The translations under genes and the position numbers were made by a program. The notes under the pieces were generated by a model that was not told where the DNA came from, did no database searches, and was given only the letters and a program-made list of their open reading frames with translations. This document shows, one piece after another, positions 8,199-64,000 of a stretch of DNA of 64,000 nucleotides (positions are counted from its first letter, which is position 1; every line of letters starts with the position of its first letter). This DNA is from Oryzomonas sagensis (GTDB lineage Bacteria > Desulfobacterota > Desulfuromonadia > Geobacterales > Pseudopelobacteraceae). The stretch is taken from assembly GCF_008802355.1 (NCBI RefSeq), contig NZ_VZRA01000001.1:1110525-1174524 (forward strand). The letters run 5' to 3'.

Positions 8199-8214
8199 GG
8201 TGCTTCCCCTTGGA

Positions 8215-8664
8215 TCAGACCTTTCCGTGGATGAACTTGCTGACCAGTTCTTCTATGTCGATGGCAGATTCGGTCTCGCGGATCGTGTCGTTGTTCTTGA
8301 GAAAGTGGTCGGAGCCGCCCGGTTTGAGCTTGATGAACTTGTCGCCGATGATGCCGCTGGTGCGGACGGAGGCGATGACGTCGTCGCCGATCCTGGTGCC
8401 GCTCTTGATCTTGAGGTAGGCCAGGGCCTGGTCCCAACCCTTGGGATCGAGCTCGATGCGGTCGACCTTGCCGACCTCCACGCCGGCGATCTCCACCCGC
8501 GCCCCCGGCTTCAACCCCGACACCGAGTCGAATTTGGCCGAAACCGTGTAGTAGTCGCCCCCCATCAATTCCATCTTGCCGAGCTTGATGGAGAGGTAGC
8601 CCAGGCAGAGTATGCCGACGATCATGAATGCGCCGACCATCATTTCCAATTTTGCCATGTTCAT
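8215..8664 (-). CDS. mlaD: MlaD-family MCE-domain lipid-transport protein
   Basis: The 149-residue protein has one N-terminal membrane helix (about residues 8-26) followed by one MCE domain, shown by the YYTVSAKFDSVSGLKPGARVE-type start and GVEVGKVDRIEL. MlaD forms hexameric rings that channel lipid across the periplasm and sit on the MlaE permease. The length fits single-MCE MlaD proteins. The gene follows mlaF by 24 bp. The C-terminal helix ends near IEELVSKFIHG, the region that closes the pore in homologues. Confidence 0.92.
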   Translation of the reverse strand: MNMAKLEMMVGAFMIVGILCLGYLSIKLGKMELMGGDYYTVSAKFDSVSGLKPGARVEIAGVEVGKVDRIELDPKGWDQALAYLKIKSGTRIGDDVIASVRTSGIIGDKFIKLKPGGSDHFLKNNDTIRETESAIDIEELVSKFIHGKV

Positions 8665-12405: not shown

Positions 12406-13284
12406 ATGATATGTAAGAAAATTGTGGCAGAAAATCAGGGGGGGCGGCGGCTGGACGATGCCGTGGCGCTCTTGTTCGACGGCCTCAGCAAGTCCGAGGC
12501 ACGGCGAATCATCGACCGTGGCGGCTGCAGCGTCAACAGCGCCATGGTCCGGGTGGCGTCGCGCACCGTCAAGCAAGGGGATACGGTCGAGGTGGGCGTG
12601 ATGGAGCCGGGTCGGTTCCAGGAACTCGTCCTTCCGCCCGAGGCGCTGTTGTACGAGGACGACGAGCTGATTGCGGTCAACAAGCCGGCCGGGGCGAATA
12701 CCCAGCGAACCCCCTATCAGCTCAAGGGGACCATGGAGTTCTGGGTCGCCGAATACTTTCGTCAGCACGGGATCAACGAGCCGGCCCGGGTGATCCACCG
12801 CCTCGACCGGGGCACCTCGGGGGTGATGGTGTTCCCGAAGCATAGGAGGGCCGCTGCCTGGCTTTCGGCCCGCTTTCACGACGGGCTGGCGGACAAGCGG
12901 TATCTGGCCCTGGTCAGCGGGCAGCCGCCGCAGGAGGCCTGGCGGGTGGACGGCCCTATCGGCAAGTTGGGCACGTCGCGCTACGGCATCATGGCGGGAG
13001 GCAGGTCGGCCCTGACCGAGTTCCGCGTGGTGGCTGCCGCCGCCGGGGGCGCCCTGGTGGAGGCGCATCCCCTGACCGGACGCACCCACCAGATCCGCGT
13101 CCACCTGGATGCGTCGGGACTGCCCATCGTCGGCGACGCCACCTATGGCGGCGCACCGGCGGAGCGTATGATGTTGCACTGTGCGCAGCTCTCCTTCGAC
13201 AACGAAAAGGGTAGGGAGATCCGTCTCGAAGCTCCCCTGGACCGGGCATTCGAAGCCTGTCTGCGGCAGTGCGGGATCCCCTGA
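12406..13284 (+). CDS. RluA-family pseudouridine synthase with S4 domain
   Basis: The 292-residue protein has an N-terminal S4 RNA-binding domain (about residues 11-65, RRLDDAVALLFDGLSKSEARR) and the RluA catalytic core with HRLDRGTSGVMVFPK, whose Asp is the nucleophile, and LTGRTHQIRVHL. It isomerises a uridine in rRNA or tRNA. RluC/RluD-type enzymes share this layout, but the exact target cannot be read from sequence. The central loop YQLKGTMEFWVAEYF is unusual compared with textbook RluD. A second RluA-family gene lies at 39581. Confidence 0.88.
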   Translation: MICKKIVAENQGGRRLDDAVALLFDGLSKSEARRIIDRGGCSVNSAMVRVASRTVKQGDTVEVGVMEPGRFQELVLPPEALLYEDDELIAVNKPAGANTQRTPYQLKGTMEFWVAEYFRQHGINEPARVIHRLDRGTSGVMVFPKHRRAAAWLSARFHDGLADKRYLALVSGQPPQEAWRVDGPIGKLGTSRYGIMAGGRSALTEFRVVAAAAGGALVEAHPLTGRTHQIRVHLDASGLPIVGDATYGGAPAERMMLHCAQLSFDNEKGREIRLEAPLDRAFEACLRQCGIP

Positions 13285-40660: not shown

Positions 40661-40810
40661 CCTTTGCCGGAAGGGGGGAGATGCCGGGTTTGGACGAGGG
40701 CGGATTTCGGCGGAGGGGTGGGGGCTTTTTGAGCCAGGGGAGGATGCGCTGTAGCGTTGACAGGTAGGGGGCTGGCGGGATAATGTAAAATTTTCCATGA
40801 AGGTGCCAGC

Positions 40811-40978
40811 GTGACAGAACTCATCTGCGACTTCTACTGCGACAAGATTCTGAAAAGCCTCATCGACGTGCCGGTGTACCTCGAGAACGAACACATCTTT
40901 GCCTTTCACCACACCAACCCCCTCTGGGAAAACCATGTGGTCCTGCAACAGACTTTTTCGGGTGGAGCGGCTTCATGA
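40811..40978 (+). pseudogene. Truncated 5' fragment of a HIT-family gene, overlapping fic
   Basis: This GTG-started 55-codon frame repeats the first 45 or so residues of the intact HIT protein at 41839: CDFYCDKILKSLIDVPVYLE here, with the same sequence there apart from one residue. It then diverges into TFSGGAAS and stops. The shared part (40826-about 40946) is about 94% identical in DNA. The catalytic histidines are missing, so it cannot be an active hydrolase. Its TGA overlaps the fic ATG (ATGA), so it may still serve to deliver ribosomes to fic. Confidence 0.8.
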
Positions 40979-41625
40979 AAAAGGCAGATCGCTACGACAC
41001 ATCGAACCTGATCGAGGACCAGTACGAACCCGGTTCCAGTGGTAGCGTGCTGCGTAACCTGCTTGGCATCACGAGCAAGGAAAAGATGGAGCGTGTCGAA
41101 GAAGCCCGGTTTGAGCGCTTGATGGACGAAGCAACAGCGCGCTTCGACAACGATCATCGTTTTACCGCAGGAGATATCCTCTGGCTCCACAAATGCTGGC
41201 TTGGCGGTATTTTTTCCTGGGCTGGCATCTACCGTACCGTCAACATCGGCAAGGGTGGCTTCATGTTCGCGGCTGCCACCCATGTGCCGGGATTGATGCG
41301 GCAGTTCGAGAACGATCAACTTGCGCGTCTGACACCGTGCCGGTTCGAGCGCACAGAAGATGTTGCAGCGGCCCTGGCCGAGGTGCATGTGGAGTTGATT
41401 CTCATTCATCCCTTCCGGGAGGGTAACGGCAGAGTTGCGCGGCTGTTGATGGTGTTGATGGCGTTGCAGGCCGGACTGCCGCCGTTGGATTTTTCCGAAC
41501 TACAGGGGGCGAAGCGGGAGGAGTATTTCGCTGCCGTCCAGGCCGGGATGGACCGGGATTACCAGCCAATGGAAAGAATCGTCAATAGAGTTATCGAGCG
41601 AACGTTGAGCGCTTGCGGGCAGTAA
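40975..41625 (+). CDS. fic: Fic/DOC family protein (AMP-transferase type toxin)
   Basis: The 216-residue Fic protein has the full active motif HPFREGNGRVAR beginning at His145. An upstream FSWAGIYRTVNIGKGGFMFA forms the flap that positions the target. Fic enzymes transfer AMP or other phosphate groups from nucleotides to proteins; many are toxins. No inhibitory helix motif (S/T-xxx-E-G/N) is visible in the protein itself; such a motif occurs in the small protein encoded on the opposite strand at its 3' end. The start overlaps the stop of the HIT fragment. The gene sits in a duplicated HIT context, indicating acquisition. Confidence 0.93.
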   Translation: MKKADRYDTSNLIEDQYEPGSSGSVLRNLLGITSKEKMERVEEARFERLMDEATARFDNDHRFTAGDILWLHKCWLGGIFSWAGIYRTVNIGKGGFMFAAATHVPGLMRQFENDQLARLTPCRFERTEDVAAALAEVHVELILIHPFREGNGRVARLLMVLMALQAGLPPLDFSELQGAKREEYFAAVQAGMDRDYQPMERIVNRVIERTLSACGQ

Positions 41626-41779: not shown

Positions 41780-41838
41780 GCTGTTACTATACCGTAAAAC
41801 GAACTGAAACGTGAGCAAAAAAGAGACAGCGAGCCACC

Positions 41839-42183
41839 ATGACCACACCCGCCTGCGACTTCTACTGCGACAAGATCCTGAAAGGCCTCATCGACGTGCC
41901 GGTGTACCTGGAGAACGAACACGTCTTTGCCTTTCACCACACCAACCCGCTCTGGGAACATCATGTGGTGCTGCTCCCCAAGCGCCACATCGAATCCCTC
42001 ATCACCCTGGAAGAGGCGGACAACGACCTGCTCCTGGAACTGCTGCGCACGGCCAAGGCGATCTCCCGCGACTTCATGGAGCGCTTCGGGGCCTGCCGGG
42101 TGTACACCAACCTGGGCGACTACCAGTCCTCCAAGCATCTCCACTGGCATATCGGCTGCGGCGCGCAGTTGCGTCCTTATTGA
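41839..42183 (+). CDS. HIT-family nucleotide-binding protein
   Basis: The 114-residue histidine-triad protein has HLHWHIGCG, with His100, His102 and His104 as the triad, plus an N-terminal FYCDKIL block. HIT proteins hydrolyse nucleotide phosphoramidates and AMP conjugates. The 5' end is present a second time upstream of fic as a diverged fragment, so this gene appears to have been rebuilt during insertion of the Fic module. Because some HIT proteins remove AMP from amino groups, a link to Fic chemistry is tempting but unproven. Confidence 0.9.
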   Translation: MTTPACDFYCDKILKGLIDVPVYLENEHVFAFHHTNPLWEHHVVLLPKRHIESLITLEEADNDLLLELLRTAKAISRDFMERFGACRVYTNLGDYQSSKHLHWHIGCGAQLRPY

Positions 42184-43741: not shown

Positions 43742-44134
43742 ATGCTCCTGCGCCTCTTCCTGATATGTACCATTGTCCCGATCATCGAGGTCTGGCTGTT
43801 GATCCTGATCGGCCGGGTTATCGGCGTGCTTCCGACCGTGGCGACCCTGCTGGCCGTCTCCCTGGCCGGGGCCTGGCTGGCCAGGTCCCAGGGGTTCCGG
43901 GTCGTCGTCGCCATCCGCGACGAACTGGCGGCGGGGCGTCTGCCGGGAGCCCCTATCCTGGACGGCGCCCTCATCCTGGCGGGGGGGATTCTCCTTCTGA
44001 TCCCCGGCTTCTTCACCGACTTCATCGGCCTGTTTTTTCTCATCCCCGCCACCCGCACGCTCCTGAAACGCTGGCTGGGGATCTGGTTGGAGCGGCGGCT
44101 GCGCCAGGGCAGTTTTGTGGTCCGCCGTTTCTGA
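43742..44134 (+). CDS. fxsA: FxsA family membrane protein
   Basis: The 130-residue protein has three to four hydrophobic helices and the FxsA blocks PIIEVWLLILIGRVIG and GGILLLIPGFFTDFIGLFFL. FxsA was named for suppressing phage F exclusion by PifA in E. coli, but its molecular role is unknown. The C-terminus is basic and cytoplasmic. It stands before a nitroreductase gene, 49 bp away. Confidence 0.88.
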   Translation: MLLRLFLICTIVPIIEVWLLILIGRVIGVLPTVATLLAVSLAGAWLARSQGFRVVVAIRDELAAGRLPGAPILDGALILAGGILLLIPGFFTDFIGLFFLIPATRTLLKRWLGIWLERRLRQGSFVVRRF

Positions 44135-44183
44135 AAGACTCGGTAAAAATTGAAAGACAATCATTGAACCAGAAGGAGACCCT

Positions 44184-44711
44184 ATGAGCGACATGATGGA
44201 ACTGTTGAGGAAGCGCCGCAGCATCCGCGCCTTCACGCCGGAACCGGTGGCCCCGGAAACCGTGGACCTGCTGGTGGAGGCGCTGCTCCGGGCCCCCTCG
44301 TCCCGTGGCAAGAATCCGTGGGAATTCGTGGTGGTGGATGACAAGGAGTTGCTGGAACAACTCTCCCGCGCCAAGGAGCATGGTTCCCAATTCATCAAAA
44401 AAGCGCCGCTGGCCATCGTGGTCTGCGCCGACACGACCGTATCGGACGTGTGGGTCGAGGATTGCTCCATCGCAGCCATCCTTGTGCAGATGGCCGCCCT
44501 CTCCCTGGGGCTGGGGAGCTGCTGGGCCCAGATGCGCAAGCGCCAGCACGACGCCGACAGCTCGGCGGAGGAGTATATCCGCAAGCTCCTCGGCCTGCCG
44601 GAACGGCTTGGGGTGGTGTGCATCATCGGTATCGGCCATCCGGCGGAGGACAAAAAGCCGGTCCCGGCCGATGCTCTACAGTACGACAAGGTGAAGCGCA
44701 ACCGCTATTGA
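44184..44711 (+). CDS. Nitroreductase-family protein (short form)
   Basis: The 175-residue flavoprotein has the N-terminal LLRKRRSIRAFTPEPVAPE, the FMN-binding LLRAPSSRGKNPWEFVVVDD, and the C-terminal LGVVCIIGIGHPAEDKKP. It is shorter than NfsB-type enzymes and resembles the BluB/NadR-like small nitroreductases of anaerobes. An AAGGAG site precedes the ATG. It ends 12 bp before the yjbQ-like gene. Confidence 0.88.
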   Translation: MSDMMELLRKRRSIRAFTPEPVAPETVDLLVEALLRAPSSRGKNPWEFVVVDDKELLEQLSRAKEHGSQFIKKAPLAIVVCADTTVSDVWVEDCSIAAILVQMAALSLGLGSCWAQMRKRQHDADSSAEEYIRKLLGLPERLGVVCIIGIGHPAEDKKPVPADALQYDKVKRNRY

Positions 44712-44723
44712 CAGGTGGCCCCC

Positions 44724-45140
44724 ATGAAGAGCTATCGCAAGGAGTTATGGTTCGAGACAAAAAGCCGCCGGGAGCTGATCAACATCACCTCCCGGGTGGC
44801 GGAGTGCCTCCGGGAGAGCGGCATCCGGGAGGGGCTTCTGTTGTGCAACGCCATGCACATCACCGCCAGCGTGTTCATCAACGACGACGAGTCCGGTCTG
44901 CACCAGGATTTCGAGGAGTGGCTGGAGGGGCTGGCGCCGGAAAAACCCTATTCTCGCTACCGTCACAACGGTTACGAGGACAACGCCGACGCCCACCTCA
45001 AACGGACCATCATGGGGCGGGAGGTGGTGGTGGCGGTGACCGACGGCAAGCTGGACCTGGGGCCGTGGGAGCAGATCTTTTACGGCGAATTCGATGGGAT
45101 GCGTAGAAAGCGGGTCCTTGTCAAGATAATTGGAGAATAG
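44724..45140 (+). CDS. yjbQ: YjbQ family protein (UPF0047), intact copy
   Basis: The 138-residue protein has the UPF0047 core: [54 protein letters not shown] and [15 protein letters not shown]. coli YjbQ can complement thiamine-phosphate synthase weakly, but the real function is unknown. The last 294 bp (44847-45140) are present again at 47175-47468 in diverged form, on the far side of a 2-kb AT-rich insert. The present 3' end may derive from the insert, since the differences between the two copies cluster at the stop-codon end. Confidence 0.9.
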
Positions 45141-45169
45141 CATATTCAAGGCACTTGGAGACAAAGGTT

Positions 45170-46036
45170 ATGAAATTTTTTAGTGACCCAAACAACCTTT
45201 ATTACGCTGGAGTTGTATTAACCATGGTTGGGCTACTTTTTACAGGTGTCGCTACTGTTCGTTCTTCTAACCTCCAAGCTAAAGCCGCAAAAGAAATAGC
45301 AGATTCTCAAAAGCAATTAACAATCAAGAGTGACCAGTTAACAAAGAAGAGTGAGGAAATATCGAAACTGAACCGTGAAATTGCCGATAATCAAAGTTTA
45401 TTACGTGAGGATACCGAGAAACAATTAGAAATGCAGAAGAAACTTGCAGAAAAAAGTGAAGAAAACGCCCTACTAAATAGTCAATTAGCTAATATTAATA
45501 AAGATTTACGACTGAAGTCTGAAGCACAAATAGAGTCGCAAAGCATGCTTAAAGATAAAATTGAAAATAGTTTGGCATTAAATAAAGAGATAGTAGAGCT
45601 TGAATATGGACAAAACCAAATCATCGGAGATATTAAAGCAACAATTTTAGATCTTGAAAATTCTTTGGTGGCTAAAGGCATTATACAGACCCCAGAGAAG
45701 CACAATGCTATAGTTCAAGTACACGGAGCTAGCTCCACGTCTAGCATCAGTACCGTAAAGTTATCTCTGGCATCAACCAGCGTAACTGTTGCAAACGGTG
45801 GTACTCAGCATCTATTCGATAATAACCTATCAATTTCAGCCGATATTACCACTGCAAAGAAAAATCACCACTTATTACATGCTATTTTAGTCTCCTTGGG
45901 TAAAAAACCGTTCCGAGTAAACACAGATAAAGTCGGATATAAATTTGATTATGAAGAATATTCTGTAAGAGTTGATAATATATCACATGATTCAGTTGTA
46001 TTTTTTATATCTATTAATGTCCCACATAACAAATAA
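45170..46036 (+). CDS. Membrane-anchored coiled-coil protein of unknown function (accessory island)
   Basis: This 288-residue protein is not a recognised family member. It has one N-terminal membrane helix (about residues 11-30, YYAGVVLTMVGLLFTGVATV), then a long coiled coil (about 35-165) rich in Lys, Glu, Gln and Ser, and a C-terminal beta-rich domain of about 110 residues. The coil would lie in the cytoplasm if the short N-terminus is outside. Base composition is about 37% GC, far below the neighbours. It is followed after 45 bp by a PIN-domain gene in the same direction, so the two likely form an operon. A sensor or scaffold for the nuclease is a guess. Confidence 0.75.
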   Translation: MKFFSDPNNLYYAGVVLTMVGLLFTGVATVRSSNLQAKAAKEIADSQKQLTIKSDQLTKKSEEISKLNREIADNQSLLREDTEKQLEMQKKLAEKSEENALLNSQLANINKDLRLKSEAQIESQSMLKDKIENSLALNKEIVELEYGQNQIIGDIKATILDLENSLVAKGIIQTPEKHNAIVQVHGASSTSSISTVKLSLASTSVTVANGGTQHLFDNNLSISADITTAKKNHHLLHAILVSLGKKPFRVNTDKVGYKFDYEEYSVRVDNISHDSVVFFISINVPHNK

Positions 46037-46081
46037 AAGGCAAGATAGCCAGCATGTCAATATCAAATACTGGAGAATAAG

Positions 46082-47095
46082 ATGACTATAGTGGCTCTTG
46101 ATGCAAATGTATGGTTAAAAGAGCGTCTACTAAGGTCTGGAATGGGTGCTGCCTTACTCTGGGCAATAAAAAATACCGATAGTGTCCTTCTTCTTTCCGA
46201 CGTAACCCAATGCGAAATCATGAATGGGGTAGTGAAAGAAATCCAAGAGGCTGCCGAAGAAATAGAAGCCGGTCTTTCGACCATACGTGCATTCATTGGA
46301 AAAAGCCAGGAAGTGACGATTCCATCGCCGGAAGAAGTTTATAAAAGTGTTAATGGGCGATTGGTTGATATTGGCACTATTTTAAAAGTGGACAACCACA
46401 AGAGCGAACACCTAGAGTCAGCTCTCCAAAGAGTTCTCAACCATCTTCCTCCCGCCCATAAGAAAGAAGAATTTAGAGACTGCATGATTTGGGAAATGTG
46501 TTTGGACATAGCACGCAGAACTCGCGAAGACTTAATCCTAATAACTGCTGATGCAGCTTTCTACCATAAAGATAAGTTCGAGAATGGTATGGCTTACCCC
46601 CTGCGCGAAGATCTCAAGCGATTTGAAGCAAATATCCAACTCTACCACAACATAGGGGCATATCTCGAAACAATACAGGAAAAAATACCTAAACCAGATG
46701 TAAAGTTAGTGACTTCTGCTATTGATGAACAAGTAATCAATACAGTCAAAGCTTCTGTTCAGGACAGTTCTTATTCAGAAATTGAGATATGCGACTCAAA
46801 AATTGATGTATTTTTAACAGAAGCTTTTGAAATACTAGCAATAAGTTTTAAACTAAAGTACAAAATATCCGACCTTGAATTAAAGGAGGGTATTGTTTTG
46901 TCAGAGGCATATGGAATAGCCGAAGGTAGCGCAACCCTTAACACTAAAAGTAACATCATCAAGAATCTTCAAATGACGGCTTACAGAATCGAAAGTGCGG
47001 ACGGACAGATTCTTCGTCAGAGTGGTTACGTATATGGGTCGGGCGGGATTGTGGGCACGCGTTACATTCCATACACTCTTAGGAGAGCAATCTAA
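46082..47095 (+). CDS. PIN-like domain ribonuclease candidate (accessory island)
   Basis: The 337-residue protein has a PIN-type N-terminal domain with a complete acidic set: Asp7 (VALDANVWLKE), Glu45 (TQCEIMNG), Asp133 (FRDCMIWEM) and Asp157 (LITADAAFYH). PIN domains are metal-dependent RNases. The domain is longer than VapC toxins and fits the DUF4935/PIN_12-like group. The C-terminal part (about residues 200-337) is a separate, unrecognised, beta-rich domain. A GGAG site precedes the ATG. The AT-rich operon and missing VapB-type antitoxin suggest a defence or stress role rather than a classical toxin-antitoxin pair. Confidence 0.75.
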   Translation: MTIVALDANVWLKERLLRSGMGAALLWAIKNTDSVLLLSDVTQCEIMNGVVKEIQEAAEEIEAGLSTIRAFIGKSQEVTIPSPEEVYKSVNGRLVDIGTILKVDNHKSEHLESALQRVLNHLPPAHKKEEFRDCMIWEMCLDIARRTREDLILITADAAFYHKDKFENGMAYPLREDLKRFEANIQLYHNIGAYLETIQEKIPKPDVKLVTSAIDEQVINTVKASVQDSSYSEIEICDSKIDVFLTEAFEILAISFKLKYKISDLELKEGIVLSEAYGIAEGSATLNTKSNIIKNLQMTAYRIESADGQILRQSGYVYGSGGIVGTRYIPYTLRRAI

Positions 47096-47174
47096 CTCAG
47101 AACGTATTTTTACCACGTTCATATTATCCCGCTCGATTGAAACGGCATCCCGGCGTAACTAAATTTGCTATAGA

Positions 47175-47468
47175 AACGCCATGCACATCACCGTCAGCGT
47201 GTTCATCAACGACGACGAGTCCGGCCTGCACCAGGATTTCGAGGAGTGGCTGGAGGGGCTGGCGCCGGAAAAACCCTATTCCCGCTACCGTCACAACGGT
47301 TACGAGGACAACGCCGACGCCCACCTCAAGCGGACCATCATGGGGCGGGAAGTGGTGGTGGCGGTGACCGACGGCAAGCTGGACCTGGGGCCGTGGGAGC
47401 AGATTTTCTACGGCGAGTTCGACGGCATGCGGAAAAAGCGGGTACTGGTGAAGATCATCGGGGCGTAG
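47175..47468 (+). pseudogene. Diverged 3' fragment of yjbQ
   Basis: This 294-bp segment corresponds to the last two-thirds of yjbQ (44847-45140) at about 94% DNA identity and the same length. It keeps the reading frame to a stop (ending [12 protein letters not shown]) but lacks the first 41 codons and a ribosome site. It marks the right border of the AT-rich insert and probably is the original chromosomal 3' end. Confidence 0.85.
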
Positions 47469-47514
47469 GGCAGCCCCTTGCAGGCACAATTCCGAATCCG
47501 AAAAGGAGGATGTC

Positions 47515-48021
47515 ATGCCACAGACCGACGACCTGAAGCGGTACCGCTGCTCCGAGATCTTTTCCCAAGCCACCGGCGTGGAAATCCGCGAGGCGTTCAA
47601 GGCCCACGAGGAGGGAGGACAGGTCACGGAGCGCGCCGGCAGGGTGCAGTTGCGCTTCTTCAAGCTGACCCCCAAGACCAAGCCGGACGAGGTGACCCAG
47701 ATCCGCTTCATCTGCGAACCGGACGAGGCCTTTGCCCTGGGGGTGATGATCGCCCAGGTGGCGGCCTCCTCGGCCCCGTGCAAGGAAAAGCTCGCCCCCC
47801 ACAAGTTCCCGGGCAGCGAGCAGGCGGCGGAGACGGTGACCACCCTGGCCGTGGAAAAATGGGAACGGGGCGGAAAGAGCGGCTATGCGCTCACGGTGGG
47901 GCGCGGCAAGGATTTCATCAGCGTGCCGGTGCCCCTGGGCAAGTTCCTCTTCGCCGGAGAGTTCCTCAAGTCCCTGGCCGTGGAACAGTGCTGGGTGGAG
48001 CGGCCGGAGAAGAAGCACTAA
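47515..48021 (+). CDS. Conserved hypothetical protein
   Basis: The 168-residue soluble protein is not recognised. It has no signal peptide or membrane helix, is rich in Lys and Glu, and has one region, RFICEPDEAFALGVMIAQVA, that looks like a helix after a beta strand. An AAGGAGG site 6 nt before the ATG and normal high-GC codon use support a real gene native to this genome. It ends 2 bp before MITE-like repeat copy 3. Confidence 0.7.
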   Translation: MPQTDDLKRYRCSEIFSQATGVEIREAFKAHEEGGQVTERAGRVQLRFFKLTPKTKPDEVTQIRFICEPDEAFALGVMIAQVAASSAPCKEKLAPHKFPGSEQAAETVTTLAVEKWERGGKSGYALTVGRGKDFISVPVPLGKFLFAGEFLKSLAVEQCWVERPEKKH

Positions 48022-48023
48022 CG

Positions 48024-48286
48024 GGTTGTTGAAAAACAGCCATCGGACCTTCGTCCTCGAAAGCCCTTTTGTAACTGAGGCCTTTGGCCTCACCCTTCGG
48101 GCGCCTTCGCGGTCCAATTTGGCAAGCTGAATTGTGCGGCGTAGCGCCCCTCATCCTATCCTTCTCCCAAAGGGAGAAGGAATACCGTTACCCTCTCCCC
48201 CTGGGAGAGGGTGGCCAAAGGCCGGGTGAGGGCGCCTCCGCGGTGCTTCCTGCGGGTGCGACGATCTGACTATTTTTGAACAACCT
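48024..48286 (+). repeat. MITE-like intergenic repeat, copy 3 (longest)
   Basis: The 263-bp copy has the same terminal sequences as those at 1044 and 2732. The core is expanded and contains two perfect hairpins, CCTTCTCCC-AAA-GGGAGAAGG and CCCTCTCCC-CCT-GGGAGAGGG, and an extra left segment. It starts 2 bp after a stop codon, as copy 1 starts 1 bp after one. Confidence 0.8.
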
Positions 48287-48306
48287 GAGTTTTCAGAGAC
48301 CTACAA

Positions 48307-49233
48307 GTGTCCCAACCCAAACGGTATAATACCTTTTCCGACGAGTTGAAGCGCATCTTCGGCTGCAAGGTGCAACGCATCTCCGTGGATGCCGGCTTTA
48401 CCTGTCCCAACCGGGACGGGACCCTGGACCGGGCGGGGTGCATCTTCTGCGGCGGGTCCGGCTCCGGGGCCTACAGCATCCGTCCCGAACTCTCCGTGGC
48501 CGCCCAGGTGGAGGACGGCAAGGAGGTCATGCGCCGCAAGTACCGGGCGGAAAAATTCATCGCCTATTTCCAGGCCTATTCCAATACCTACGCGCCGGTG
48601 GAACATCTGCAGGCGCTGTTCGACGAGGCGCTCTCGGTCCCCGGCGTGGTCGGCATCATCGCCGCCACCCGACCCGACTGTCTGCCCGACCCGGTGCTGG
48701 ATTTCCTGGCCCGCCTGGGGGAGCAGACCTATTTCTGGCTGGAGCTGGGGCTGCAATCCATCCACGACAAGAGCCTGGCGCTCATTAACCGCCGCCACGA
48801 CTACGCCTGTTTCGTGGATGCCCTCGAACGGGCCAAGGCCCGCGGGATACGGGTCTGCGCCCATGTGATCCTGGGGCTGCCGGGGGAATCGCGGGAGGAG
48901 ATGCTGGCCATGGCGGGCGAACTGAACCGCCGCGGCGTGGACGGCGTCAAGCTGCATCTGCTGCATGTGATGAAGGGAACCCGCCTGGCGGAGATGTACG
49001 GGCGGGGCGAGGTGGCACTGCTGGACCGGGACGGCTACGCCGGACTGGTGTGCGATTTCCTGGAACTGCTCGATCCGACGGTCCTGATCCATCGCCTGAC
49101 CGGCGACGGGGGGCGGGACAACCTGGTGGCGCCCCTCTGGTCGCTGAACAAGTTCGAGGTGCTCAATCTGATCGATGCCGAACTGGAGCGGCGCGACAGC
49201 CGGCAGGGGATGAGGTTTTCCCTGAACCCGTGA
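48307..49233 (+). CDS. Radical SAM protein of the TIGR01212/YhcC family
   Basis: The 308-residue protein has the N-terminal RYNTFSDELKRIFGCKVQRI block and a variant radical SAM cluster motif, CPNRDGTLDRAGCIFC, with a long spacing between the first two cysteines. WLELGLQSIHDKSLALINRRH and HVILGLPGESREEMLAMA are typical of the family. The reaction is unknown. The GTG start at 48307 lacks a strong ribosome site; it comes 20 bp after the repeat element, which could influence expression. Confidence 0.9.
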   Translation: MSQPKRYNTFSDELKRIFGCKVQRISVDAGFTCPNRDGTLDRAGCIFCGGSGSGAYSIRPELSVAAQVEDGKEVMRRKYRAEKFIAYFQAYSNTYAPVEHLQALFDEALSVPGVVGIIAATRPDCLPDPVLDFLARLGEQTYFWLELGLQSIHDKSLALINRRHDYACFVDALERAKARGIRVCAHVILGLPGESREEMLAMAGELNRRGVDGVKLHLLHVMKGTRLAEMYGRGEVALLDRDGYAGLVCDFLELLDPTVLIHRLTGDGGRDNLVAPLWSLNKFEVLNLIDAELERRDSRQGMRFSLNP

Positions 49234-62321: not shown

Positions 62322-64000
62322 ATGCCCGAAAGCATTATTAGTCTTTTAACCCAAGTTGATTTATTCAAGCGCAGACAAGAGAGTGAAGACCTTGTTTGGG
62401 ATACAGGCTTGTTTGTGGGACGCCCCTTCAAGCTCAGTTATGGAAAGGCTGAAATTTTGGTCGCTGATGCGTGGAAGCAGCGAGCGGGGGGGATTCCGCA
62501 GGGTTGTTTTCTTTTGGCATATTACGACAACGAGCCTTCCGACTCTTCTGCTTTTGAAGCGATTCTACTGCGGGTTATACAACCTACTAGCCTTCCGACA
62601 GACTCAACAGTTATTAGCAGCATGGTTGAATACTATAAGGATAATATCCGTACCGGCACTAACGCTCGTTCACAACTTGACACATTTACCCGGTACGAAT
62701 TTTCCTTTAGTGCTCTGGAATGCTCCGTATTGGGGTCCTTTTACAAGGATGAGAATGGTAATGGGAAAATAAGGTTTGGGGCAGACCTGGAAAACTTTTT
62801 TAGTGCCCATAACTATTCAATTATCAAGCCGTCTCCTGAAATCCTCAAATCAATCGTGAATTATCGTGAAAGTGGCGCTCCGGGTGGAACTGGCGATATT
62901 CGCATCGGCAAGGTCAGGTATAGTTCCAGCCGGCGACGCCAACAATCAGAGGAGGTTGTGCCAGTATATGTTCAGGCCCCTGATTTTGCGGGAAAACGAA
63001 CAGCCCTGTTTGGCATGACCAGAACAGGAAAATCCAATACAGTCAAAAAGATTATACAGGCGTGCGTTGAAATGAGTGAAAGCGCCCCGCTGGTCCTCGA
63101 CCAAAGCCAAGAATCAACAGCAGAAGTCCTCAAACCGCTTACTGAAAACAATACCCCCAAGTATCCAATTGGCCAGATAATTTTTGACATAAATGGAGAA
63201 TATGCTAATCCAAATTTGCAGGACCAAGGCACCGCCATTTTTGACATGTATCGTAACAAAACAGTACGATATTCAACCGTTGAAAAAGGTGACGACTTCA
63301 AGGTGATGAAGGTCAATTTTTATAATGAAGCAGGCACAGGGTTTGAGCTTGTAAAATCCTATCCAACAATTGCCGATGATACAACTCGCTTTGTAACAAA
63401 CTTTAAAAATGTAATTTTGGAAAAGCCTGAAGATTATGATTCCAATAGATCTGCAAAAGAAAGGCATGACAGAAGGGTAGCGGCCTATTTTTGCTGTCTC
63501 TATCGTGCTGAATTTCCGGCTCCAAGAAATTTTAAGGTGAAATTCACTGCAAATGAAAAAGTTAGAGAAGCCGTAAATCCAAATATTGACCCGGCTAATG
63601 GGTTGTCACTGGAGGATGCCTCAAACTGGTGGGATAAGCTGTGGGAAGTCTATCCAAGCGCTCCATGCTTCGAGGAATATAAGCGTACCAAACAAAAAGA
63701 ATGGGCAGATGACGATTTAAAAGCGGTTTTAACAATTTTGACTAGAAAGCGTGACCCAGGAACTGGGAGATCTGATTGCGCTGGTTTCCGAATCCTTAAA
63801 AATGTTAAAGATCAGCACACTTCTCAGACACAGGAACCGTTCGACCAAGACATTCTTAAGCAATTGCGGGCAGGTAAAATTGTTATTGTTGATTTGTCTT
63901 TAGGGGAAGAAAGTGTTCAGAGAATGTTTTCTGAGCGTATAACCAGAAAAATATTCCAAGACAGCATGAGTCGATTTACAAGTACAAAGCCAAACAATTT
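62322..64000 (+). CDS. HerA-like ATPase (3' end outside window)
   Basis: The frame is open from an ATG at 62322 (AGGAGG site 7 nt upstream) to the window end, at least 559 residues. Walker A is GMTRTGKS (residues 231-238), and Walker B with catalytic Glu is FDINGEY (Asp289, Glu293), the form typical of HerA/FtsK-family DNA translocases. The 220 N-terminal residues before it look like a HAS-barrel-type domain but were not recognised. Codon use is AT-rich like the methyltransferase. HerA ATPases occur in many phage-defence systems with nuclease, SIR2 or methylase partners. The rest of the operon lies beyond the window. Confidence 0.85.
   Translation, partial: MPESIISLLTQVDLFKRRQESEDLVWDTGLFVGRPFKLSYGKAEILVADAWKQRAGGIPQGCFLLAYYDNEPSDSSAFEAILLRVIQPTSLPTDSTVISSMVEYYKDNIRTGTNARSQLDTFTRYEFSFSALECSVLGSFYKDENGNGKIRFGADLENFFSAHNYSIIKPSPEILKSIVNYRESGAPGGTGDIRIGKVRYSSSRRRQQSEEVVPVYVQAPDFAGKRTALFGMTRTGKSNTVKKIIQACVEMSESAPLVLDQSQESTAEVLKPLTENNTPKYPIGQIIFDINGEYANPNLQDQGTAIFDMYRNKTVRYSTVEKGDDFKVMKVNFYNEAGTGFELVKSYPTIADDTTRFVTNFKNVILEKPEDYDSNRSAKERHDRRVAAYFCCLYRAEFPAPRNFKVKFTANEKVREAVNPNIDPANGLSLEDASNWWDKLWEVYPSAPCFEEYKRTKQKEWADDDLKAVLTILTRKRDPGTGRSDCAGFRILKNVKDQHTSQTQEPFDQDILKQLRAGKIVIVDLSLGEESVQRMFSERITRKIFQDSMSRFTSTKPNN

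Follow-up and report, generated by a model that had tools for sequence, protein, structure and literature searches.

The 64,000 nucleotides (nt) of Oryzomonas sagensis DNA analyzed here, hereafter the window, contain an AT-rich insert (45141–47174) that starts directly after the stop codon of yjbQ and stops where a second piece of the same gene starts. The insert consists of two intact co-directional genes separated by 45 nt, and no further gene: gene A (45170–46036) encodes a membrane-anchored coiled-coil protein of 288 amino acids (aa) and gene B (46082–47095) a PIN_12 nuclease of 337 aa. The genes, the insert and the yjbQ copies described below all lie on the + strand. Base composition and comparison with sister genomes indicate that the insert was almost certainly acquired from a foreign source at yjbQ. 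As the best explanation of the whole, to which we assign a probability of about 0.47, we propose a recently acquired nuclease cassette of defence or stress type whose membrane partner would restrain or place a PIN ribonuclease (RNase). The presence of the gene pair in an AT-rich insert is confirmed: an earlier note on this DNA had given exactly the same coordinates and the same two co-directional genes 45 nt apart. Its proposal of an AT-rich foreign insert was also borne out, the measured guanine plus cytosine (GC) content being 38.4% as compared with the value of about 37% in the note.

The GC content is 34.9% in gene A and 41.0% in gene B against 60.3% in the window, and at third codon positions it reaches 28% and 37% in the two genes against 83% in yjbQ. 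The longest stop-free run in the insert extends over 348 codons; after the insert had been shuffled 1000 times, the longest run obtained was 213 codons. A hidden RNA was not retained, Rfam giving zero matches at gathering score in 44000–48500. All four same-genus genomes with a yjbQ match (G001–G004) contain one yjbQ and no insert; in the fifth same-genus genome (G005, 83% complete), no yjbQ match was found.

The target of the insertion is the 3' end of yjbQ. The full-length copy of this gene (44724–45140, 138 codons) matches the Pfam family UPF0047 with 126 bits and TIGR00149 with 117.7 bits. Its last 294 nt (44847–45140) constitute copy 1 of a direct repeat whose copy 2, a 5'-truncated yjbQ on the other side of the insert (47175–47468), is 93% identical and is joined to the native downstream sequence, as found after yjbQ in the sister genomes. 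Neither this repeat nor the empty sites of the sister genomes had been reported in the earlier note. The two copies differ at 20 positions, 17 of which are third codon positions. Fifteen differences fall in the last 64 nt (45077–45140) and five in the first 230 nt, a clustering that was matched by 1 of 20000 random placements in a permutation scan devised after the data had been seen. At the 15 tail sites, agreement with copy 2 versus copy 1 was 13–0 for G002, 11–3 for G003, 10–3 for G004 and 7–5 for G001. Since the sister genomes side with copy 2 at these sites, the end of copy 2 is most likely native and that of copy 1 foreign, and the divergent tail of copy 1 would probably have been imported. 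The clustering of the differences in a segment where copy 1 looks foreign thus suggests a crossover within yjbQ, by which the tail of the gene would have been swapped for foreign DNA. The simplest account of these sequence data would be that incoming DNA, in which a yjbQ tail stood next to the cassette, crossed over with the resident yjbQ within the gene. A small two-gene cassette from an AT-rich source would then have been integrated by recombination in the 3' part of yjbQ; because the incoming DNA carried a yjbQ tail, the resident gene would have remained intact, its 3' end now being foreign, and on the far side a truncated copy of 294 nt would have been left. As for the form of the incoming DNA, we infer that it may have been, for example, a circle.

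Insertion with long target duplication has been described for restriction-modification genes of Helicobacter pylori (Nobusato et al. 2000, as reported in PMC1643837 and PMC3031569). As far as these accounts go, the features in common are a cargo placed between long direct copies of the target (here 294 nt, 93%), an empty site in close relatives (here G001–G004) and the presence of defence- or addiction-type genes. Two features differ from what the same sources relate. The cargo is here a PIN_12 nuclease with an orphan membrane protein and not a restriction-modification system, which is the usual but perhaps not obligatory cargo, and one of the two copies diverges strongly at one end. Because of this divergence, at least part of the duplicate would have been brought in and not copied from the recipient. 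The insertion is a variant of the long-target-duplication pattern, and gene B is a member of the PIN_12 family. In another genome (G009), an orphan yjbQ 3' fragment of about 190 nt (L030, 5443–5653, contig C28) lies beside a PIN_3 gene of 45% GC, on a different contig from the intact yjbQ of that genome.

Gene B matches Pfam PIN_12 (PF16289) with 58.7 bits for a cut-off of 32, the domain covering residues 4–160 (46091–46561). We take PIN_12 to be the family formerly named DUF4935; literature found under the term PIN_12 consisted of unrelated papers only. In order to evaluate the catalytic residues, gene B was aligned with 14 of 16 other PIN_12 loci, of which 10 were retrieved from 277 genomes of the class at an expectation (E) value of 1e-8 (gene B set aside) and 6 exceeded the cut-off in 395 genomes of the phylum. 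Loci L117 and L118, which are truncated, were omitted; L113 and L124 entered the alignment without their N-terminal extensions, and the aligned segment comprised the first 270 residues. Asp7, Glu45 and Asp133 are kept in 15/15 sequences and Asp157 in 13/15, with Asn in the other two. The PIN domain with four acidic residues that had been read from the DNA is hence supported both by the family match and by the alignment of all four residues with 14 members, and gene B is predicted, with good confidence, to encode an active nuclease.

In the structure model, the C-terminal domain of gene B (residues 207–315, 46700–47026) begins with a helix and continues in long antiparallel strands, in a cystatin/NTF2-like arrangement whose fold match lies within noise. 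The structure model is poor, with a mean predicted local distance difference test (pLDDT) score of 48; the PIN part is mostly below 50, and residues 201–310 reach 57–83 by block. When this model was compared to the PDB with Foldseek, nothing was found at E <0.001. A viral Foldseek match at E 7e-5 was discarded as not meaningful (template modelling score 0.15). With VIA-align, which covered little of the PIN part, the C-terminal domain aligned with cystatin-like and NTF2-like entries at Z up to 7.4, a value within the noise stated for the tool. Among the proteins tested, this domain (about residues 200–337) is common only to two relatives of gene B found in genomes G148 and G116, and its profile gave no convincing match in seven other PIN_12 proteins. 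Over 231 codons, the C-terminal part differs from the G116 sequence at 64, 47 and 130 sites in codon positions 1, 2 and 3 respectively, a pattern as expected of a protein that would be held by selection. In PHROG, gene B matched phrog_9788 (unknown function) weakly at E 0.002 and the G148 relative matched it at 5e-8; these matches were not used.

The setting of PIN_12 genes was then compared across the 16 other loci. In all of them the GC content around the PIN_12 gene is below that of the stretch as a whole, by at least 5 points in 12. Gene B shares with the family the acidic residues of the PIN core and this lower-GC cargo setting, while its C-terminal domain sets it apart from the seven members mentioned above. 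The neighbours vary from locus to locus: a DUF3800 gene at L110, a SIR2-like gene at L111, a trypsin-like gene at L113 and, downstream at L120, a gene for a small protein without Pfam match that has a membrane helix at its C-terminus; at L115 and L123 the PIN_12 gene looks like a lone AT-rich gene. A second PIN_12 gene of the same genome (G000:C2:15841-16401; L125, L074) is flanked on one side by the gene of a DrmD-like helicase and on the other by that of a type III methyltransferase. On these sequence comparisons, PIN_12 genes look like mobile, sometimes defence-linked cargo with no fixed partner. At one locus (L114/L068, genome G360), a 1195-aa PIN_12 protein is bracketed by 268 nt of umuD (Peptidase_S24) with 92% identity (8211–8478 and 12493–12759), one side being a broken umuD copy and the other an intact umuD-umuC. 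Two weaker repeats (86 and 128 nt, 76–78%) also bracket this gene. Since the G360 genome has three umuDC copies, a umuD paralogue may be the source of the repeat. Insertion with long duplications is not a rule for PIN_12 genes, as a long gene-fragment repeat brackets 1/16 of these loci; the L111, L118 and L124 stretches are short (contig ends), so that the absence of repeats there says little. Finer observations at these loci are that at L113 (8767–10789, G069) the PIN_12 gene lies directly 3' of the trypsin-like peptidase gene (Pfam Trypsin_2, 33.6 bits), that at L111 (3968–6137, G108) it lies directly 3' of the SIR2-like gene (Pfam SIR2_2, 80.6 bits), and that a further helicase-like gene, recognized by eye, is found after the second PIN_12 gene of the O. 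sagensis genome.

Gene A preferably starts at the ATG at 45170, a TTG at 45155 being also possible. Hydropathy analysis revealed a single hydrophobic stretch, a transmembrane helix at residues 10–31 (45197–45262). It is followed by a long helical rod (residues 32–168, 45263–45673) modelled at pLDDT 82–97 by block; the model shows one long helix from residue 7 to 168 and a tail (residues 175–288) below 50, and comparison of this tail with solved chains gave no match. The membrane coiled-coil protein with a C-terminal part of no family proposed by the earlier note is thus recovered from the hydrophobic stretch, the modelled helix and the tail. No credible relative of gene A was found. Among the 395 phylum genomes, its C-terminal part gave two weak matches besides itself: that in G475 (E 0.0045) was judged to be due to chance, its frame reading by eye as an NAD-type oxidoreductase, and that in G299 (E 0.009) contains two stops. 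No antitoxin family was matched in Pfam or NCBIfam, where sub-threshold matches only were obtained.

How the two proteins could work together can be proposed from these features. Gene B would be a PIN_12 RNase with its own C-terminal sensing or binding module, and the rod protein would be made just before it. The rod would be anchored in the inner membrane, and the positive residues that follow the membrane helix suggest that its coil would be cytoplasmic; there it may keep the nuclease in place or prevent its activity. Upon phage infection or damage to the envelope, the nuclease would be freed or activated and would cut RNA and halt growth, so that the population might be protected or the cassette stabilised. 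That the cassette serves in defence or in the stress response, with the nuclease under the control of the membrane protein, is tentatively put forward, at slightly less than an even chance. The idea is reasonable because published PIN systems defend without antitoxin: such is the description of DS-3 and DS-5 of DefensePredictor (PMC13092281). In the account given there, DS-5 requires a second protein, which has no antitoxin action and carries DUF5830 and an AcrIF4-like domain. The likeness of the cassette to DS-3 and DS-5, a PIN nuclease without antitoxin, is drawn from the description in that source, and gene A differs from what is described for DS-5 in that Pfam, consulted up to E 1, gave no DUF5830 match for it. 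Should the membrane rod indeed restrain the nuclease, the cassette would wire envelope damage to RNA cutting, unlike VapBC.

A number of results weigh against this proposal. Homologues of the two genes were not found side by side, as far as this could be judged on two relatives of gene B. One was detected besides gene B itself in 141 genomes of the order (G116, 60% over residues 107–337); it is without the N-terminal part of the PIN domain and no gene A lies beside it. Its contig contains tRNA-Phe and the gene of a phage-type integrase (PF00589 in Pfam, 52.5 bits), and the locus can be read as a decayed island. The phylum genomes contained one more relative, which is full length (G148, 28%); the gene before it encodes 234 aa, matches no Pfam family and is not gene A. 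A profile built from gene B together with its relatives recovered only G148 itself in 22 genomes of the G148 class, and scans of genome contigs returned a single record, with the match placed as in the G116 contig. Gene B had zero matches in plasmids and phages and zero relatives among viral contigs; the G148 protein had no match in phages and a distant one in three Rhodococcus plasmid records (23.7%). Gene A had zero relatives in the order genomes at E 0.001 and nothing in plasmids, and its tail had zero relatives among viral contigs. Its weak family matches, to an Rz-like spanin in PHROG (E 0.0007, on the coil), to SMC (E 0.0015, over the coil) and to UPF0242 in Pfam (E 0.0014, below cut-off, over the coil), fall mainly on the coil, pass no curated cut-off where one exists, and were not used. 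No gene A-like gene is adjacent to PIN_12 in the 15 readable neighbourhoods (judged by hydropathy and the first 120 residues, L117 being left out), and neither protein matched PADLOC-DB. Scans yielded 7 promoters for 4.9 expected and 2 terminators for 2.6 expected, neither being above chance; a promoter-like site at 45118–45146, partly within the foreign yjbQ tail, comes from this same scan. As to the acquisition, G001 barely prefers copy 2 in the tail, and at the five sites of the first 230 nt the agreement with copy 1 versus copy 2 was 3–2 for G001, 2–3 for G002, 4–1 for G003 and 2–3 for G004, so the sister genomes do not decide which copy would be foreign there. The topology and the sensing, finally, are inferred from charge and gene order. 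The new two-gene system proposed as a candidate by the earlier note is consequently unsupported, since neither relative of gene B adjoins a gene A relative and gene A has no credible relative; no recurrence was seen in the order and phylum genomes or in the other PIN_12 neighbourhoods. This is evidence against a recurring pair, which stays unproven. Because there is no credible gene A relative and no recurrence of the pair, it is proximity alone that points to a joint function. An operon of two genes, however striking, is not necessarily a conserved system.

Several of these data would also suit two independent passengers, gene B being a lone PIN_12 cargo and gene A an unrelated AT-rich neighbour from the donor, for example an envelope or spanin-like gene. 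This possibility deserves serious consideration, at roughly one chance in three, and comes close behind the favoured reading. It is consistent with the absence of gene A beside either gene B relative, with the varied or seemingly missing neighbours of PIN_12 genes, with the difference in GC between the two genes (34.9 versus 41.0%) and with the spanin match of gene A, which may reflect the coil only; a one-gene PIN defence system, DS-3, is moreover among those described in PMC13092281. Against it, the two genes are co-directional with a gap of 45 nt, are the sole genes of the insert and arrived together.

A second cassette is found 4 kb from the yjbQ insert, likewise bracketed by a duplicated gene piece, here the start of a HIT-family gene. 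On the + strand, a truncated 5' copy of this gene (40805–40946; 142 nt, 89%) is followed by a Fic gene (40975–41625; PADLOC candidate PDC-S04, 250 bits) and by the second repeat copy (41833–41974), which corresponds to the 5' end of an intact HIT gene (41839–42183). At this place, G002 possesses a single HIT gene and lacks Fic; in G004 a remnant of Fic is left, from which an internal part is deleted. Other sister genomes harbour different toxin-like modules between HIT and yjbQ or immediately upstream: a HepT/MntA-type pair (G001) or a zeta toxin with a CopG-type antitoxin (G003). The clearer lesson would be that of acquisition: two small toxin- or defence-like cassettes lie 4 kb apart between long duplicates of housekeeping genes, and for each of them one sister genome or more shows the empty site; this layout makes integrase-free capture of defence genes testable. 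A survey of the 420 kb surrounding the window for repeats of at least 60 nt and at least 78% identity, 0.4–12 kb apart, yielded six pairs. Two of them are gene fragments that bracket cargo, both within the window; the other four measure 62–108 nt. Duplication-flanked cargo as a genome-wide habit was not retained on this count.

The restored yjbQ with its foreign tail at the 3' end could also be read as the mark of a site-specific island, inserted, like islands in the 3' ends of tRNA or protein genes, by an integrase later lost or acting in trans. The phage-type integrase gene (PF00589, 52.5 bits) beside tRNA-Phe near the G116 relative would fit such an origin. This explanation is nevertheless unlikely: the two genes of the insert have no integrase match in Pfam, the duplicate of 294 nt is longer than usual attachment cores and the HIT/Fic case duplicates a 5' end and not a 3' end. 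In addition, no integrase was noticed by eye in the yjbQ neighbourhood or fragment of 8 relatives (of 57 searched), although no integrase-directed search was made.

A VapBC-like toxin-antitoxin, in which gene A would neutralise gene B, is improbable: the cassette has the partner first and the PIN-fold nuclease second, with a suitable gap and with toxin-antitoxin type genes in nearby slots of sister genomes, but gene A is membrane-bound, larger than VapB proteins and without antitoxin-family match, and gene B belongs to a different PIN family, is much longer than VapC, has an extra C-terminal domain and scores under the cut-off of the general PIN model (VapC-type, PF01850; 15.1 bits versus 23.6). 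The judgement of the earlier note that neither gene fits VapBC holds on these scores and on the single membrane helix of gene A.

Beyond the proposed membrane-controlled nuclease cassette, the insert might belong to a class of integrase-free mini-cassettes that would spread small nuclease or toxin genes via a piece of a conserved host gene, here carrying a membrane-tethered PIN RNase defence unit of new design. In such a class, recombination would swap the tail or head of the host gene, which would keep working, and the cassette, lying between the copies, could be lost or amplified. We regard this extension as a long shot.

Two further features of the window were recorded. An AT-rich module of 42–43% GC extends from 61298 to the end of the window at 64000 and on to about 65731. 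It includes a type II-like DNA methyltransferase, a HerA-like ATPase and a 449-aa protein without family match, and zero direct repeats of at least 20 nt (14-nt seed) were found in the 18-kb stretch searched for it. A dispersed repeat of about 63 nt occurs in three places (1188–1250, 2799–2861 and 48233–48295), one copy being located shortly downstream of the yjbQ tract.

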